From Bdellovibrio sp. ZAP7 (lineage in GTDB: Bacteria > Bdellovibrionota > Bdellovibrionia > Bdellovibrionales > Bdellovibrionaceae), in contig NZ_CP030082.1 of NCBI RefSeq assembly GCF_006874645.1, positions 2,294,001 through 2,358,000 on the forward strand: a stretch of DNA of 64,000 nucleotides. The letters are read 5' to 3'. Every line of letters begins with the position of its first letter. The stretch's first letter is position 1. Below the pieces are notes generated by a model. That model searched no databases. It saw only the letters and a list, made by a program, of their open reading frames with translations, and had not been told where the DNA came from. A program made the position numbers and the translations under genes. This document shows positions 20,165 through 63,101 of this stretch, one piece after another.

Positions 20165-22315
20165 TTACTTGTAGAACTTAGCGTTTGATTTAGCCATGTT
20201 CGCCAGTGGCGTTGCTGGCTTCAAACGTTTAGCATTGCGGCTGGAAGCATATGTCGCCAATTGATCAGCGATATATTGCGAGCCAATGCTGTCGGCATAC
20301 TTAAGCAAGCCACCACGGAATGGTGGGAAGCCTGTACCCATGATCATACCCAAGTCAACTTCGTGAGGAAGTTCAACGATATGATCTTCGATCAAGGCCA
20401 GCGAGCACTCATTCACCATCGCGAACACACCGCGCTCGATGCATTCCTTTGGTTGCAGAGGATTACTTGGCGAACCCAAGCCCAATGCTCCATATACTGT
20501 TTGATCGACGTCACCGCGTTTGCCATCAGCCTGGTAAGTGTAGAAACCTTTACCATTCTTACGACCCAAGCGGCCTGACTTCTCAAGAGCTTCCATACAA
20601 GGCGCCATTTCAATGCGCTCGCCGAATGCTTTTTTGAAGATTTTTAGAACTTTGATACAAACATCCAAACCAACTTCATCCATCAATTCAAATGGACCCA
20701 TTGGCATTCCGAATTCTTTTACGTAGGCTTTATCTACGACTTCAATGCTCATACCTTCTTGCATCAACCAAGCAGCTTCCGCCATATATGGCAAAAGAAG
20801 ACGATTCACAAGGAAGCCCGGGCCGTCTTTAACCACGACAGGCATTTTACCCATTTTCTTAGTGAGTTCAAAAATAGTCGCGATAGTTTCGTCAGATGTT
20901 TTTTCACCGCGGATAACTTCAACAAGTGGCATTTTATTTACCGGATTGAAGAAGTGCATTCCTGCAAAGTATTCAGGACGTGGATGACCCTTGGCCATTT
21001 CAGTCACTGACAAAGAAGACGTGTTCGTCGCAATAATCGCGTCAGGGCGCATTTGACCTGCACACTCACCGATGACTTTTTGCTTGATACCCATGTCTTC
21101 AACGATCGCTTCGACAACCACATCCAGGTTTTTGAAACCCGAGTAATCAGTTGTTACTGATACTGCGTCGATTTTTTGTTGGAATTGATATTTGTCGATG
21201 GATTTACGTTTTACCAACTTCATCCAAAGGTCGCTGGCGTGCTTCAAACCTTTTGCCAACGCATCTGGATTCAAGTCTTTCATACGAACTTGAATGCCCT
21301 TATCTGCCGCAACGTAAGCGATACCGCCACCCATGGTACCAGCACCCAAGATACCCAGGCCTTTAACTTCTTTCGGTTTTACATTCACACCTGATACGCC
21401 GGTTTGCTTTTTAACCATTTCAGTTAAGTAGTAAACGTGGATCAGGTTTTTAGATTCCGCCGTGACACCCAACTCACAGAAGCCTTCGCGTTCGATACGC
21501 ATACCCGCATCACGATCGCTCATGCCGTAAGTTTTTTGAATCACATCCAATGCTTTAAGTGGAGCTGGATAGTGACCTTTGGTTGCTTTCATTACGCCTT
21601 CACGGGCTTTCTTAAACACAATGCCTTTTGCTGGGCCTTCAAGAACTTTATTGACCAAACCTTGCGGTTGGAACTTCTTGCGACGTTTTTGACCGCCAGC
21701 TGCGATGACTTCTTTCGCCCATTTGATCGCTTGCTCATCCAACAAGTTCGGATGAACGACTTTGTCCACTAGGCCTGATTTCAATGCCTTTTTAGAATTC
21801 ACTGCCTTACCAGCAAGGATGATATCCAATGACGCTTGCAAGCCCATGATACGAGGCATACGTTGAGTACCGCCAAAACCTGGCAAGATACCCAATTGAA
21901 TTTCTGGAAGACCGATTTTCGTTGAGGAATCATCGGAAGCGATACGGTAATCGCAAGACATGATGAACTCACAACCACCACCCATACACGCGCCATTTAC
22001 AGACGCGAAAGTTGGCATTGGGAGGTCTTCAACCATATTCATGATTTCTTGACCGGCTTTAACCGCGTCGTTGAATTGTTCTTTCGTCGTCATGCCTTTG
22101 ATCTCTTCGATGTCAGCACCAGCGATAAAGATTTTCGGCTTCATGGATTTAAAGATCACCGCTTTGTAAGAAGACTTACGTAGTTCTTCAACGACGTCTT
22201 TCAGTCTCATCATAACCGGTGTTGAAAATTTATTAACTTTTTCACCCACAAGATCGAACTCAACAACTGCGATTTCACCTTGTGGATTAATTCTGATACT
22301 TTCTAGCATAGACAT
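20165..22315 (-). CDS. fadJ: Multifunctional beta-oxidation protein: enoyl-CoA hydratase/3-hydroxyacyl-CoA dehydrogenase
   Basis: 716 residues. Residues 1-190 form the crotonase domain (KPKIFIAGADIEEIKG, GACMGGGCEFIMSCDYRIA oxyanion segments, GLPEIQLGILPGFGGTQR). The NAD-binding dehydrogenase follows with GAGTMGGGIAYVAADKG at about residue 325, NTSSLSVTEMA and GMHFFNPVNKMPLVEVIRG, then the C-terminal helical domains to the end. It hydrates and oxidises enoyl-CoA in beta-oxidation and works with the thiolase encoded upstream. Whether to call it FadB or FadJ is open; the symbol is tentative. The start has AGGAG. A 182-base gap with a long inverted repeat separates it from the thiolase gene. Confidence 0.92.
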   Translation of the reverse strand: MSMLESIRINPQGEIAVVEFDLVGEKVNKFSTPVMMRLKDVVEELRKSSYKAVIFKSMKPKIFIAGADIEEIKGMTTKEQFNDAVKAGQEIMNMVEDLPMPTFASVNGACMGGGCEFIMSCDYRIASDDSSTKIGLPEIQLGILPGFGGTQRMPRIMGLQASLDIILAGKAVNSKKALKSGLVDKVVHPNLLDEQAIKWAKEVIAAGGQKRRKKFQPQGLVNKVLEGPAKGIVFKKAREGVMKATKGHYPAPLKALDVIQKTYGMSDRDAGMRIEREGFCELGVTAESKNLIHVYYLTEMVKKQTGVSGVNVKPKEVKGLGILGAGTMGGGIAYVAADKGIQVRMKDLNPDALAKGLKHASDLWMKLVKRKSIDKYQFQQKIDAVSVTTDYSGFKNLDVVVEAIVEDMGIKQKVIGECAGQMRPDAIIATNTSSLSVTEMAKGHPRPEYFAGMHFFNPVNKMPLVEVIRGEKTSDETIATIFELTKKMGKMPVVVKDGPGFLVNRLLLPYMAEAAWLMQEGMSIEVVDKAYVKEFGMPMGPFELMDEVGLDVCIKVLKIFKKAFGERIEMAPCMEALEKSGRLGRKNGKGFYTYQADGKRGDVDQTVYGALGLGSPSNPLQPKECIERGVFAMVNECSLALIEDHIVELPHEVDLGMIMGTGFPPFRGGLLKYADSIGSQYIADQLATYASSRNAKRLKPATPLANMAKSNAKFYK

Positions 22316-22366
22316 TTTGCAAACTCCTAAGTTGCTAATCAGTTTTTTACCGCCTCAAATACAATC

Positions 22367-22489
22367 GGGTCGACCAAAACGACCCAGATGCAAGGCGGAG
22401 GGCACGAACCGCAGCGCAGGCGTACTTACAGTACGCTGGAGCGAGGACCGCGCCCGACACGCAGTCAGATGGGTCGTTTTCATCGACCC
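22367..22489. repeat. Intergenic long hairpin repeat, copy A
   Basis: Outer arms at 22367-22386 and 22470-22489 pair over 18 of 20 positions, with an AAAAC/GTTTT core. Inside is a second stem, GCGTAC-loop-GTACGC at 22420-22436, and the words GCAAGGCGGAG and GCAGCGCAGGCGT. Copies B (51178) and C (62613) have the same plan. It lies between the fadA-type and fadB-type genes, so their common mRNA would carry the hairpin. Confidence 0.75.
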
Positions 22490-22497
22490 CCTTAGTG

Positions 22498-23841
22498 CTA
22501 GCCCTCATTCTCCAGAATCATAGAACCACCTTGACCGCCACCGATGCAAAGTGTTGCAAGACCGTGCTGTACGCCTCTGCGTTTCATTTCTTTCGCAAGA
22601 GTCAATACGATACGAGTCCCTGTCGCACCTACTGGATGACCCAATGCAATCGCGCCACCGTTAACGTTTAGGATCTCGTCACGAATCTCTCCGACTTTTG
22701 CAGACAAGCCAAGTTTCTCTTGGGCAAATTTGTCAGAATCCATGGCTCTTTGGCAGGACATAACTTGAGCGGCGAACGCTTCGTTTAGCTCTACCAAACC
22801 GATGTCTTTCAAAGAAAGACCTGCGCGCTTAAGTGCAAGTGGTGTTGAGTACGCCGGGCCCAGCCCCATGCGCTCTGGCTCCAGGCCTGCGAAGCCGTAA
22901 GAACGGATTGTAGCCAGAGGTTTGTAACCTGCTTGCTCTGCTTTCTCACGAGACATTAAAAGCACCATCGCGGCACCATCTGTAATTGGGCAAGAATTAC
23001 CAGCTGTGATTGTCCCTGTTGCTTTATCGAAGAACGGCTTCAATTTCGCTAGTGCTTCCATAGTTTGAGTGTCACGAGGACCGATGTCTTCAGAGATCAC
23101 TTCTTTGTATTCAGGAGCCAAGTACACGGGAGTTGATTCTTCCTTCATGCGACCTTCTTTCATCGCTTTGGAAGCCAACTGATGGGAACGAAGAGCGAAA
23201 GCATCTTGCATCTGACGATTCAAGCCCCACTCTTTTGCCAGGATCTCAGCTGTTTGTCCCATGTTGATCCCTACGAAAGGATCTGTCAGACCCAACATCA
23301 CACCGATTTGTGGGAAATAGGGATCTCTCATGTTGCCTTGAAGAAGCGCTTTGATTTGACTGACGTCTGCTTTAAAAAGCTTCCACAACAATGGCAAAGC
23401 TTGCTTTGGACCTTTTGCCGCGAAAAGTTTTTCATAGATGTCTTGGAATTTTTGCGGCGCTAGAGTTGGGATTTGCGACATGGATTCAGTACCACCCGCG
23501 ATCACAACATCCATCGTGCCGGATTTGATTTTTTCAAAACCGTTAGAGATCGACTCAAGTGCTGAAGCACAGTTTCTGTGAACGGTGTACGCCGATGTTT
23601 TCATCGGGATACCTGCATTCAAAGCAACAACGCGCGAGATATTCACAGCATCTGGTGGATTACCAGTGTTTCCGATGATCACTTCATCAACGGAATTTAC
23701 ATCCAAGTTCGTTTGCGCGATTAATTGCTTAAGCGCAACTTGTCCCAACTGTGCTGGGTGAACTTTTTTAAGTTTTGTACCTGATTTTGCGAATGGTGTA
23801 CGCACACCTTCAACGAGAACCACATCACGTGGTGACTTCAT
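22498..23841 (-). CDS. fadI: Acetyl-CoA C-acyltransferase (thiolase)
   Basis: 447 residues from ATG 23841, which has AGGAG with 7 bases of spacing; a longer in-frame start adds 24 residues without homology. Thiolase marks: the acylated Cys in HRNCASALES, NEAFAAQVM, GGAIALGHPVGATGTR and the C-terminal Cys in LATLCIGGGQGG. It cleaves 3-ketoacyl-CoA, the last step of beta-oxidation. The FadA/FadI distinction is not certain; FadI-type length (over 430 residues) fits. The fadB-type gene follows on the same strand, and a regulatory-looking region of inverted repeats lies upstream. Confidence 0.9.
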   Translation of the reverse strand: MKSPRDVVLVEGVRTPFAKSGTKLKKVHPAQLGQVALKQLIAQTNLDVNSVDEVIIGNTGNPPDAVNISRVVALNAGIPMKTSAYTVHRNCASALESISNGFEKIKSGTMDVVIAGGTESMSQIPTLAPQKFQDIYEKLFAAKGPKQALPLLWKLFKADVSQIKALLQGNMRDPYFPQIGVMLGLTDPFVGINMGQTAEILAKEWGLNRQMQDAFALRSHQLASKAMKEGRMKEESTPVYLAPEYKEVISEDIGPRDTQTMEALAKLKPFFDKATGTITAGNSCPITDGAAMVLLMSREKAEQAGYKPLATIRSYGFAGLEPERMGLGPAYSTPLALKRAGLSLKDIGLVELNEAFAAQVMSCQRAMDSDKFAQEKLGLSAKVGEIRDEILNVNGGAIALGHPVGATGTRIVLTLAKEMKRRGVQHGLATLCIGGGQGGSMILENEG

Positions 23842-24189
23842 AGAAAACTCCTGTTGGGTAATTCTGACTAACCACTGAAAATCGTACAGGTTTTCCATGT
23901 GAGGACCAAACACAAACGCAGAATTACGAAGTGAGGTCTAGTTTCGACAACCTTTCTCGAATGCCCTCAGGGGGTCGAGGGACTTTTTCGAAACACTTTC
24001 TCAGTTTTTACGAGGGAAACTAGAACCACGGCTCTAGTTTAAAGCACGCTCGGGTCCAGGCTTGCCGCACCTGAAGACTTATGTTTCACACGTGCCTCAC
24101 CGCAAAAGAGCAAGGGGTCACTCAGCGACGAAGCTGCTTTCAATAATCCTGCGATTCGGTCTTGTGCGCACTTTTAATTCTCGTCGCAG
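23842..24189. other. Gene-free stretch upstream of the thiolase gene
   Basis: 348 bases between the thiolase start and the end of the HNH gene. It holds the TCTAGTTT half-sites described separately and a hairpin CCCTC-loop-GAGGG near 23965. I see no convincing coding sequence; the 62-codon plus-strand reading from 24062 looks accidental. It should contain the promoter of the beta-oxidation genes. Confidence 0.5.
23937..24040. promoter_or_regulatory. TCTAGTTT half-sites and inverted repeat, possible operator
   Basis: TCTAGTTT at 23937-23944, and an inverted pair AAACTAGA at 24017-24024 with TCTAGTTT at 24033-24040, 8 bases apart. The same half-site forms a tighter palindrome upstream of cheY at 42078-42097. 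An alternative reading is a weak hairpin terminator for the HNH gene, but there is no T run. Confidence 0.4.
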
Positions 24190-51041: not shown

Positions 51042-51085
51042 TTGAACATAGAAAAAAACCAAGTCAAGATCCCTCCCCGCCCCAA

Positions 51086-51145
51086 AAATCGAGACGCAGT
51101 CGAGATTTCCCCCCCGCTCCCAAAATCGAGACGCAGTCGAGATTT
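51086..51145. repeat. Tandem pair of 23-base hairpins
   Basis: Two identical 23-base units at 51086-51108 and 51123-51145 (core CGAGACGCAGTCGAG). Each can fold with a GCA loop and two tandem G.A mismatches in the stem. They lie after slyX in a C-rich stretch and could act as transcription end or mRNA-end signals. Confidence 0.55.
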
Positions 51146-51177
51146 TTCCCCAAAAAAAAGGGCAAGATGACGGAGGG

Positions 51178-51279
51178 AATTTTAGCGCCGAGAAGGTTTT
51201 ATCAAGGCGCAAAGAGGAAGGCGTACACCGTACGCCGACGATGCAGCAACGCAGAGAAAACCTTCTCCGCGCTAAAATT
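51178..51279. repeat. Intergenic long hairpin repeat, copy B
   Basis: Nested arms: AATTTTAGCGC (51178-51188) with GCGCTAAAATT (51269-51279), GAGAAGGTTTT (51190-51200) with AAAACCTTCTC (51257-51267), and an inner perfect stem GGCGTAC-ACC-GTACGCC (51220-51236). Same plan as copies A and C. Its right end touches the stop codon of the XRE gene, so it may end convergent transcripts. Confidence 0.75.
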
Positions 51280-51560
51280 TAGCTGCTTTTGGCTTGTTTG
51301 AAGCGAGTCTTTAGGTTGATAGCAGTTAGACGAAGTTCTTCTTCCAAAACCACATCAAACAACTTTTGTGCGGAGATTTTGTACAAACCCGCCAATTTCC
51401 ACAAAATAGAAATCGGTGGAGAAGAAACGCCACGCTCCCAGTTGGAAACGAACTGAGCTGTTTCATAACCTAGAACAGTTGAAACTTCTTTTTGTGACAA
51501 GCCAGATTTCAAACGACACTCTTTTAGGAAAGCCGCCAATTTCGATTCTTGTGTAGCCAT
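51279..51560 (-). CDS. XRE-family HTH regulator
   Basis: 93 residues. Residues 8-65 are an XRE/Cro HTH (LAAFLKECRLKSGLSQKEVS, TVLGYETAQFVSNWERGVSS, PPISILWKLAGLYKIS). The last 20 residues form a basic helical tail (INLKTRFKQAKSS). Good ribosome site GGAGGAATTAAGTA. No partner gene next to it on the same strand apart from an unrecognised gene upstream, about 90 bases away. The target is not known. Confidence 0.85.
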   Translation of the reverse strand: MATQESKLAAFLKECRLKSGLSQKEVSTVLGYETAQFVSNWERGVSSPPISILWKLAGLYKISAQKLFDVVLEEELRLTAINLKTRFKQAKSS

Positions 51561-60671: not shown

Positions 60672-60783
60672 CCCTTAAGTCTTGCAAAGGGACCGTCTGA
60701 ACACAAGAATTTCCTTTACCCGTCTCGAACCTTTACTCTAGAATAAGGGCTCAGCACAATTGAGAACGTCATCAGGAGGCATC

Positions 60784-62448
60784 ATGGAAAAGATTTGGCT
60801 CAAGAACTACCCTGCAGGAATTGGCCCTGAAATTGACCCAAACGAGTACCAATCTCTGACTGACATTTACGACGAAGCCGTTCGTAAGTTTTCCTCCAGA
60901 AAAGCTTTCACCAACATGGGCGTCAGTCTCACGTTTTCGGAGCTGGACCAAAAAGTAAACAACTTCGCTTCATTCCTGCAAAACGAATTGAAACTAAAAA
61001 AAGGTGATCGCATTGCGATTCAAATGCCGAATTTATTGCAGTTCCCGGTGGCAGCCTTCGCAGCTCTTCGCGTGGGTCTCACAATTGTGAACACCAACCC
61101 CCTTTACACAGCTCATGAAATGCAACATCAGTTCAAAGACTCCGGGGCAAAAGCGATCGTGATCATGGCGAACTTTGCAAATCATCTGCAAGCCATCATC
61201 AAAGACACACAAATTGAAAGTGTTGTAATTACAGAGCTTGCGGATCTATTCCCGACTCCGAAAAGAATTTTGGTGAACTCGGTTGTGAAATACATCAAAA
61301 AAATGGTTCCTAAATATGACATTCCTCAAGCTTACACTTTCCGTCAGGCTTTGGAATTGGGAGCGATGCGCCCGCACCAAAACGTAAAAACGAATCACGA
61401 AGACTTAGCTTTCCTTCAGTACACAGGAGGAACGACGGGTGTTGCAAAAGGCGCTATGCTGACTCACAAAAACGTGATCTCAAACATGATGCAAATTCGT
61501 GAGTGGATGAGACCGAAACTGGAAGAGGGCCGCGAAATCGCCATTGCCGCTCTTCCGCTATATCATATCTTTGCATTGACGGTAAACTGCTTGGCGCTTT
61601 TAAAAATGGGTGCCGAAAATATTCTCATCACAAATCCAAAGGACATCCCAGGCTTTATCAAAGAATTGAAAGCTCGACCTTTCTCTGTGGTATCGGGAGT
61701 AAATACATTATTCAACGCTTTGATGAACAATCCAGAATTCGCAACGATTGATTTCAAATCCGTGCGCGTGAGCGTGGCGGGCGCCATGACTTTGCAAAAA
61801 CCTGTGACAGAAAAATGGATTAAGATGACGAACTCCGTGATCGTCGAAGGTTACGGCTTAACGGAAGCTTCTCCCGTGGTTTCCTGCAACCCTATCGACG
61901 GCACGGACCGTGTTGGCACAATTGGTCTGCCAATGCCTAGCACAGACGTAAAATTGGTTGATGACGATGGCAACGAAGTGAAACCAGGCGAAGCCGGCGA
62001 GCTTTGCGCTAAAGGCCCACAAGTGATGAGAGGTTACTGGAATCGCCCGAAAGAAACTGCAGACGTGCTTTCAGCTGATGGCTGGTTAAAAACTGGTGAC
62101 GTCGCGACCGTGGACCAAGATGGATTCTTCAAAATCGTAGATCGCAAAAAAGACATGATCTTGGTTTCAGGCTTTAACGTTTATCCAAATGAGGTCGAAG
62201 AAGTGATCGCATCCCACCCGGGCGTGCTAGAAGTAGCTGCCATCGGTGTTCCAGACGAACACTCCGGTGAAATCGTAAAAGTGGTGATCGTCAAAAAAGA
62301 TCCAAGCCTGACACCAGAAGATGTGATCGCTCACGCCAGAAAGAGCCTGACGGGTTACAAGATTCCTAAATTGGTAGAGTTCCGCACAGAACTCCCAAAA
62401 ACAAACGTAGGCAAAATCCTACGCCGCGCCCTAAGAGATCCCAAATAG
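60784..62448 (+). CDS. fadD: Long-chain acyl-CoA synthetase
   Basis: 554 residues from ATG 60784, with a perfect AGGAGG four bases upstream. AMP-forming ligase marks: YTGGTTGVAKGAMLTHKN (P-loop), VEGYGLTEASPVVS, GWLKTGDVATVDQDGFFKIV and KTNVGKILRR with the catalytic lysine. It activates fatty acids with ATP and CoA, feeding the beta-oxidation genes at 20-24 kb. A tandem hairpin array and a strong terminator follow. Confidence 0.93.
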   Translation: MEKIWLKNYPAGIGPEIDPNEYQSLTDIYDEAVRKFSSRKAFTNMGVSLTFSELDQKVNNFASFLQNELKLKKGDRIAIQMPNLLQFPVAAFAALRVGLTIVNTNPLYTAHEMQHQFKDSGAKAIVIMANFANHLQAIIKDTQIESVVITELADLFPTPKRILVNSVVKYIKKMVPKYDIPQAYTFRQALELGAMRPHQNVKTNHEDLAFLQYTGGTTGVAKGAMLTHKNVISNMMQIREWMRPKLEEGREIAIAALPLYHIFALTVNCLALLKMGAENILITNPKDIPGFIKELKARPFSVVSGVNTLFNALMNNPEFATIDFKSVRVSVAGAMTLQKPVTEKWIKMTNSVIVEGYGLTEASPVVSCNPIDGTDRVGTIGLPMPSTDVKLVDDDGNEVKPGEAGELCAKGPQVMRGYWNRPKETADVLSADGWLKTGDVATVDQDGFFKIVDRKKDMILVSGFNVYPNEVEEVIASHPGVLEVAAIGVPDEHSGEIVKVVIVKKDPSLTPEDVIAHARKSLTGYKIPKLVEFRTELPKTNVGKILRRALRDPK

Positions 62449-62548: not shown

Positions 62549-62560
62549 GCCCCAAAAATA

Positions 62561-62591
62561 AAAAAAAGGTCCCACCAGGGACCTTTTTTTT
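62561..62591 (+). terminator. Rho-independent terminator after fadD, bidirectional
   Basis: A7-GGTCCC, ACCA loop, GGGACC-T8. With an A run on the left and T run on the right it works both ways and could also serve the convergent HiPIP gene. Confidence 0.9.
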
Positions 62592-62612
62592 ATTTCAAAA
62601 ACCGAGAACCAA

Positions 62613-62733
62613 GGTTGGTCAAAACGGTTCGATTGCTAGGCGGAGTGACTTGCTCGCAGCGCAGGCGTGCCCCAGGCACGTCGGAGCGAGAACAAGTCGC
62701 TCCAACAACGCAAGCGGGCCGTTTTCACCAACC
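62613..62733. repeat. Intergenic long hairpin repeat, copy C
   Basis: Outer arms at 62613-62630 and 62716-62733 pair over 15 of 18 positions with AAAAC/GTTTT at their core. The inner stem is CGTGCC-CCA-GGCACG at 62666-62680. Words AGGCGGAG, GCAGCGCAGGCGT and GGAGCGAG are shared with copy A. It lies between the fadD terminator and the HiPIP stop. Confidence 0.75.
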
Positions 62734-62741
62734 GCCCAGAA

Positions 62742-63101
62742 CTAAGCTTTTTTGTTCCAGGATGCACACCACCCATTCGCCTTAACCAATTTTCCAGCGA
62801 AGATTGTGCAAGTGCCTTTATCCGCGTCTTTCTTGCCATAGAAACCGCAAGTCGCGCAGTGATTGCCCTTTGCTTCAGGCGCTTTGGTGTGATCTTCAAC
62901 GTACTTCACTGCTTTTGCTACAGAATCATTTGGATCAACCATTGGCATTGCGCCGCCAGCTGCCGCACCACCAGAAGGGGCTGCGCCTCTTCTTTTCTCC
63001 TGAGCCTGAGCTTCAGAAGAGAATGCACGCAAAAGTGTTGGAGCGATAACAGCGACTCCTGCTACGGATGCCAGTGTTTTAAAAAATCCACGACGGTTCA
63101 T
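62742..63101 (-). CDS. High-potential iron-sulfur protein, Tat-exported
   Basis: 119 residues. Tat signal NRRGFFKTLASVAGVAVIAP with Arg3-Arg4. The four cluster ligands are Cys82, Cys85, Cys98 and Cys112 in CATCGFYG, GTCTIFAGK and NGWCASW, the HiPIP pattern. A Gly/Ala-rich linker (residues 39-54) follows the signal. The protein carries one electron in the periplasm. Good ribosome site AGGAGG. Single gene. Confidence 0.92.
   Translation of the reverse strand: MNRRGFFKTLASVAGVAVIAPTLLRAFSSEAQAQEKRRGAAPSGGAAAGGAMPMVDPNDSVAKAVKYVEDHTKAPEAKGNHCATCGFYGKKDADKGTCTIFAGKLVKANGWCASWNKKA

Follow-up and report, generated by a model that had tools for sequence, protein, structure and literature searches.

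The window, that is the whole 64-kb stretch of Bdellovibrio DNA analysed here, contains three long hairpins, copies A, B and C, which an earlier note on this DNA had described. The hairpins, their arms and the surrounding genes are as follows; scores of the hairpins are those of R1, a covariance model described below.

20165–22315, minus strand: fadB-like gene, in the same direction as the fadA-like gene and beyond the left side of copy A (Pfam ECH_1, 3HCDH_N, 3HCDH)
22363–22490, plus strand: copy A, long subtype, complete element (R1 120 bits, E 4e-30 in the window)
22367–22386, plus strand: outer left arm of copy A, GGGTCGACCAAAACGACCCA (inverted repeat I3, 90% complementary to 22470–22489)
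22470–22489, plus strand: outer right arm of copy A (inverted repeat I3)
22498–23913, minus strand: host gene of copy A, a fadA-like thiolase, leading-strand (Pfam Thiolase_N/C, ORF end)
51177–51279, plus strand: copy B, short subtype with copy-specific arms (R1 37.8 bits, E 7.4e-8)
51279–51560, minus strand: host gene of copy B, an XRE-type regulator (the label is that of the earlier note), leading-strand (ORF coordinates and translation)
60760–62448, plus strand: fadD-like AMP-binding enzyme, a convergent lagging-strand gene left of copy C (Pfam AMP-binding, AMP-binding_C)
62556–62595, no strand: terminator-like perfect palindrome between the fadD-like gene and copy C, separate from the element (inverted repeat I2, 18 nt, 100%)
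62608–62735, plus strand: copy C, long subtype, complete element (R1 131 bits, E 3.7e-33)
62742–63101, minus strand: host gene of copy C, a high-potential iron-sulphur protein (HIPIP), leading-strand (Pfam HIPIP, 2e-18)

The presence of the three hairpins was confirmed in the sequence and by an inverted-repeat search, which gave no more than six inverted repeats (18 nt or longer, arms at most 120 nt apart) in the 64-kb window, the three hairpins included. The hairpin core of copy A spans 22367–22489 and folds with -66.7 kcal/mol; that of copy C spans 62613–62733, and copy B corresponds to inverted repeat I1 with arms of 26 nt (92%). Compared to 200 dinucleotide-preserving shuffles, the folding z values of A, B and C on the plus strand were -7.5, -6.2 and -7.2, respectively. 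No Rfam family matched the 64-kb window at the gathering score. All three copies are intergenic, as had been stated, and all three sit directly at the end of a gene: the stop codon of the fadA-like thiolase (22498–22500) is 8 nt from the right edge of copy A, that of the HIPIP gene is 6 nt from the right edge of copy C, and the last base of copy B overlaps the stop codon of the XRE-type gene. The stop codon of the fadD-like gene lies about 160 nt from copy C.

One shared design with constant words had been proposed for the three copies, with AAAAC/GTTTT at the core of the arms. Both statements apply to A and C and fail for B, which is without GCAGCGCAGGCGT and GGAGCGAG and has arms of the form GGTTTT...AAAACC, i. 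e. in the opposite sense. The core of copy B reads TCAAGGCGC..GGAAGGCGTAC..GTACGCCGACGA..GCAACGCAG. Copies A and C are thus typical of one family and match it strongly, and copy B is related to them but belongs to a second subtype, whose core is shorter. Copy C is identical in the sister genome G022 (128 of 128 bases). Left of copy B, at 51085–51143, there are two short near-identical palindromes, AAAATCGAGACGCAGTCGAGATTT.

With one mismatch allowed, a search of the 4.12-Mb genome gave 21 occurrences of the word GCAGCGCAGGCGT; the reversed word, used as a control, occurs once. R1, which was built from 14 copies and has 128 positions, gave 46 matches in the own genome (G000). After removal of opposite-strand echoes and very weak matches and addition of B-type copies found by a core-pattern search, 38 copies were counted. 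They are elements of 100–130 nt, each forming one long interrupted hairpin, and are spread widely over the chromosome. Within the genus, 21 of the 24 genomes contain R1 matches at a threshold of E 0.001 (0 to 78 per genome, some of them strand echoes), and no copies were detected in G003, G004 and G013. The covariance-model search suggested in the earlier note thus yielded further copies both here and in most genomes of the genus. In the phylum, 68 of 291 sampled genomes, from 37 genera, had matches at E 1e-6. Beyond the phylum, a pattern scan of species genomes pointed to contigs of deltaproteobacterial, Syntrophobacterales and Firmicutes metagenome-assembled genomes, which R1 confirmed with E values from 1e-20 to 1e-7. 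A literature search found no published report of these repeats in Bdellovibrio.

Copies within one genome are up to 85–91% identical and have genome-specific cores; they form genome-specific sub-families with nearest-neighbour identities of 0.76–0.85. They occur singly or in tandem in the same orientation, and alternating pairs were not seen. Two tandem copies in the same orientation are found for example at L022/L037 (G000:C1:3041522-3041761), and same-orientation tandem pairs are common in G012. L045 (G000:C1:3122158-3122345) is a composite copy whose right arm carries two further perfect hairpins.

The arms had been described as different between copies yet complementary, and this was borne out. 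Double changes affect 25 of the 43 pairs in the 14 copies, and 93.5% of the cells are paired versus 77.8% in shuffles and 33–42% when the partners are slid. The covariation score was 0.469 versus 0.183 in shuffles, and not one of 500 shuffles scored as high. The B-type copies have a core of about 55 nt in common and arms near chance identity between copies (mean 0.35). A left arm nevertheless pairs with its own right arm at 13–18 of 18 positions (median 17), compared to a mean of 11.0 with the arms of other copies. Between orthologous copies of G000 and G022, 26 pairs were changed on both sides, where 3.1 would be expected if the changes were independent, and 15 of the 26 are still paired. These data show that the DNA encodes a long interrupted hairpin which is maintained by compensatory change, and that such long stems evolve fast by compensation between sister species. 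Hence further copies and covariation in the arms, on whose absence the earlier note had offered to abandon its proposal, were both found. The selection on the folded form to which it pointed is one of two readings: double changes are expected from selection on the fold, and also from template-switch correction of quasi-palindromes; the data fit both.

The orientation of the elements follows replication. Of the copies listed by the searches, mainly the higher-scoring ones, 171 of 180 in 11 genomes have one orientation relative to dnaA, or 169 of 173 when G007 is left aside. In the six complete genomes that start at dnaA, 116 of 117 copies are in one fork orientation; in the five further genomes dnaA was located for this count. 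By position, the counts were 37/38 in G000, 18/18 in G002, 15/15 in G006, 33/33 in G012, 9/9 in G022, 7/7 in G005, 11/11 in G021, 19/19 in G023, 11/12 in G017, 9/11 in G015 and 2/7 in G007. The strand calls are safe: both replichores contributed copies to R1, and on the wrong strand A and C lose 75–85 bits of score.

Seven of the nine misfits are in two genomes, G007 and G015. The misfits were checked against the replication part of the third-position GC skew in 20-kb stretches. This local GC3 skew agrees with the element in G007, where it is near zero at one locus, and at both misfits in G015. The mixed orientation in these genomes was therefore dropped as a counterexample, and two exceptions are left (G000 2973313- and G017 3238806+). 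The discord suggests inversions, or misassembly or assembly order, in G007 and G015. On contig C1 of G007 (L322–L328), the position relative to dnaA and the local GC3 skew disagree over large parts of this genome, and the element follows the skew. As a sequence marker of replication direction, the element can be used for checking assemblies of the genus.

A second rule concerns the stop codon. The genes in this analysis come from a simple codon-score caller, and individual gaps may therefore be inaccurate. In four genomes, the right neighbour of 64 out of 73 copies is a gene on the opposite strand, i. e. a leading-strand gene. Where both neighbours were known, the stop codon was at most 8 nt from the element in 48 of 59 copies; uniform placement within the spacer predicts 8.3. 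Of 21 convergent spacers, 18 have the element right next to the stop codon of the leading-strand gene, and none has it next to that of the lagging-strand gene. A bias in gene strand is not the reason for this placement, as the genes of the window are distributed 21:21 over the strands. Nor did the element bring the stop codon, since at empty orthologous sites the stop codon is at the same place. The stop codons at the copies (TAA 26, TAG 19, TGA 7) have proportions similar to the background (81/49/25). The G000 copies had suggested 5'-STAR (CTAG/GTAG/CTAA/GTAA) as a target in the lagging-strand template; this motif was rejected because the stop types match the background and because A or T precedes the stop codon in other genomes.

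The comparison of orthologous loci with and without the element, also suggested beforehand, revealed differences in presence and one site that is precisely empty in two relatives. G000 and G022, whose FadB proteins are 99% identical, have about half of 36 loci in common; the others are without the element or hold remnants. With G021 as the third genome, L027 was seen to be lost in G022 and L035 and L042 to have internal deletions, while G022 and G021 both have a precisely empty site at L053. Precise empty sites numbered just two, which does not suffice to define a target-site duplication, and TAG stands at both ends of the element at L053 only. The arms of L053 had no match in the 24 genomes of the genus; either the parent was lost or unsampled, or the arms were made anew. 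Possibly, L053 was lost in two relatives rather than gained once. A derivation of the arms from the target was discarded: empty sites are without arm sequence, and the resemblance of the left arm of L053 to its right flank is a single case.

Smaller inserts were found as well. In L047 and L062, a hairpin of about 32 nt is nested in the arms of the large element and is absent from G022 and G021. This insert, which also occurs in L044 and L052, consists of a variable complementary stem followed by GCGGCGNAGCCC. The orthologs of the fadB-fadA spacer (window 22316–22497; L108–L126) contain different hairpin families in different species, and many of them contain no hairpin. Eight genomes have a second family there, with the core GGCRAGTTCCGCAGCAG..GTCCGCGAGGACTGTCCG and arms that are again different yet complementary. 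In the fadB-fadA spacer of G002, the arms of the G006 hairpin are present without the core.

Our results show the following: the presence of copies differs between close species; their orientation to the fork is near-uniform; and most of them lie directly behind leading-strand stop codons that existed before. The reading we favour, with a probability of roughly 0.55, is that the hairpins are non-autonomous interspersed repeats of the REP/ERIC/MITE kind, inserted via the single-stranded lagging-strand template. Copies would enter through the single-stranded DNA of this template. The element would probably take its folded form there and be processed by an HUH (Y1, IS200/REP-type) enzyme or by a comparable single-strand mechanism, and such an entry would fix the orientation. 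Only copies that land where a leading-strand gene ends would persist or be admitted, because there the coding strand is the lagging-strand template and the mRNA past the stop codon is free of ribosomes. The element would then make up the beginning of the transcribed 3' UTR, where it would fold. Either selection on the fold or correction of one arm by the other through template switching could maintain its pairing.

Insertion into the lagging-strand template would explain the orientation by analogy with the IS200/IS605 single-strand transposons, which prefer this template (PMC6006769). However, insertion bias alone leaves the contact with the stop codon unaccounted for. The very tight gaps favour targeting over retention. 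Retention at gene ends would nevertheless be plausible in view of the effects of REPs on translation: those lying no more than 15 nt from a stop codon are reported to stall ribosomes and to affect translation (published work cited in PMC12306157). The best single account is an insertion bias combined with either targeting or retention at gene ends.

A tentative alternative is that the hairpins represent a new class of element, which enters single-stranded coding-strand DNA just past co-directional stop codons without a dedicated transposase of known kind and whose arms are rebuilt as inverted copies private to each copy. The exposed DNA would in this case be the lagging-strand template, and an R-loop might contribute at the point where the mRNA is released by its ribosomes.

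The tight placement behind stop codons and the strong covariation would also be expected of a functional RNA structure in the 3' UTR, selected for mRNA stabilisation, processing or control of translation termination, with mobility being old or incidental and the location of copies dictated by selection on the RNA. The fadB-fadA spacer, where the hairpin families differ by species as if a hairpin were wanted, fits this as well, and a similar role, including the stalling of ribosomes, has been proposed for REPs of E. coli that lie no more than 15 nt from a stop codon (PMC12306157). Yet lagging-strand genes should gain equally, and none does in the 21 convergent spacers; moreover, the orientation follows the fork in nearly all copies, and many orthologous spacers are hairpin-free. 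Because both genes of a convergent spacer should be alike, the ratio of 18 to 0 contradicts RNA-level selection alone, and we regard this explanation as rather unlikely. The same contrast separates insertion bias from RNA-level selection, and single-strand insertion at the fork becomes directly testable.

The near-absolute orientation to replication and the wide chromosomal spread could also indicate a DNA site which acts with the fork or in chromosome organisation, for example by easing replication past co-directional 3' ends. Orientation-dependent DNA sites such as KOPS and Chi are short motifs, however, whereas the element is a long hairpin. It is present in about 10–80 highly variable copies, none were detected in three genomes of the genus, and close species differ in which copies they hold. 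Such a function is therefore improbable.

A classical REP/REPIN system mobilised by resident RAYT (TnpA-REP) genes is likewise improbable. The copies are interspersed and form hairpins, and 21 of the genus's 24 genomes have Y1 (IS200-like) transposase domains, with ten Y1_Tnp genes in this genome. At 6 of 50 Y1 loci, a copy of the family lies 41–288 bp downstream of the Y1 gene and in the same orientation, which is more than chance, but these loci are partly orthologous. On the other hand, a search for the Y1 groups adjoining copies gave none in G012 and G017, two genomes rich in the family (49 and 78 R1 matches), and in G012 no Y1 domain was detected at E 0.01. The group-1 Y1 genes (seven copies in this genome) are followed by a short repeat, TGACCGATACCCC (L229, L239, L241, L245, L247, L253), which is probably their own REP. 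Mobilisation by group 1 was rejected for this reason and for its absence from the copy-rich G012 and G017. A search for a transposase-bearing partner element with shared ends found none. As to the associated transposase that the earlier note had asked for, IS200-like genes lie beside a few copies but are undetected in a copy-rich genome; a Y1 enzyme is a candidate mobiliser, and no enzyme is tied to the family. That the hairpins are intrinsic transcription terminators, as their position behind genes and strong stem might suggest, is very improbable, since at A, B and C no T run follows the outer stem on either strand and within the elements the terminator search yielded nothing but small internal stems, A lies within a same-direction gene pair, and C has a separate terminator-like palindrome alongside.

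Returning to the favoured reading, insertion of non-autonomous repeats, the family can be compared with known systems. REPs are palindromes of 20–60 nt with a GTAG or CGTC-type tag at one end, and BIMEs are alternating pairs of them. Like REP, BIME and REPIN with their RAYTs, the Bdellovibrio elements are interspersed hairpins, often just behind stop codons, in genomes that carry RAYT-like genes. Unlike these, they are much longer (100–130 nt) and have no constant tag, the variable flank of the hairpin being the stop codon; they are single or in same-orientation tandem instead of alternating BIME pairs, fixed in orientation to the fork and without a consistent RAYT or IS200-like partner. The earlier suggestion of a REP/BIME-like or non-autonomous mobile element fits in view of interspersed intergenic copies, genome-specific amplification, presence and absence, a precise empty site and nested insertions; that the element is a REP in the strict sense is not supported. 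Many copies with presence/absence polymorphism at orthologous sites are also what characterises MITEs and other non-autonomous mobile elements.

In size and form the family resembles ERIC/IRU/RU-1 of enterobacteria and Vibrio, which are about 127 bp long, intergenic and non-coding, occur in tens of copies and fold as one long imperfect stem-loop (for ERIC, PMC2267715). By eye, small words are alike as well (GCAAGGCGG-like and GGTGAGCGA). Membership in ERIC was rejected, as two ERIC copies of E. coli went unmatched by R1 even with the threshold relaxed to E 10. With IS200/IS605 and their non-autonomous derivatives the elements have in common the hairpins, insertion apparently without a clear target duplication and the bias to the lagging-strand template, but there is no linked tnpA with matching ends and no fixed short target sequence here, and to our knowledge stop-codon placement is not known for elements of the IS200/IS605 type. 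Geobacter genomes, from related bacteria, contain multicopy, conserved intergenic repeat families with palindromes which we compared by description only; the available parts of these descriptions mention no rule for orientation or stop codons (PMC2700814, PMC2996986).

Fork-locked orientation combined with placement at leading-strand stop codons did not turn up in the published work searched, most subscription journals lying outside the search. As a kind, the family thus sits with REP and ERIC-like repeats, and what is new are the two placement rules together. ERIC-like hairpin repeats have been known for more than three decades, and we know of no agreed mode of movement or reason for their position. 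A family that indicates the direction of the fork almost without fail and, in a shared spacer, chooses the stop codon of the leading-strand gene provides a sharp clue to how hairpin repeats move and why they lie where they do.
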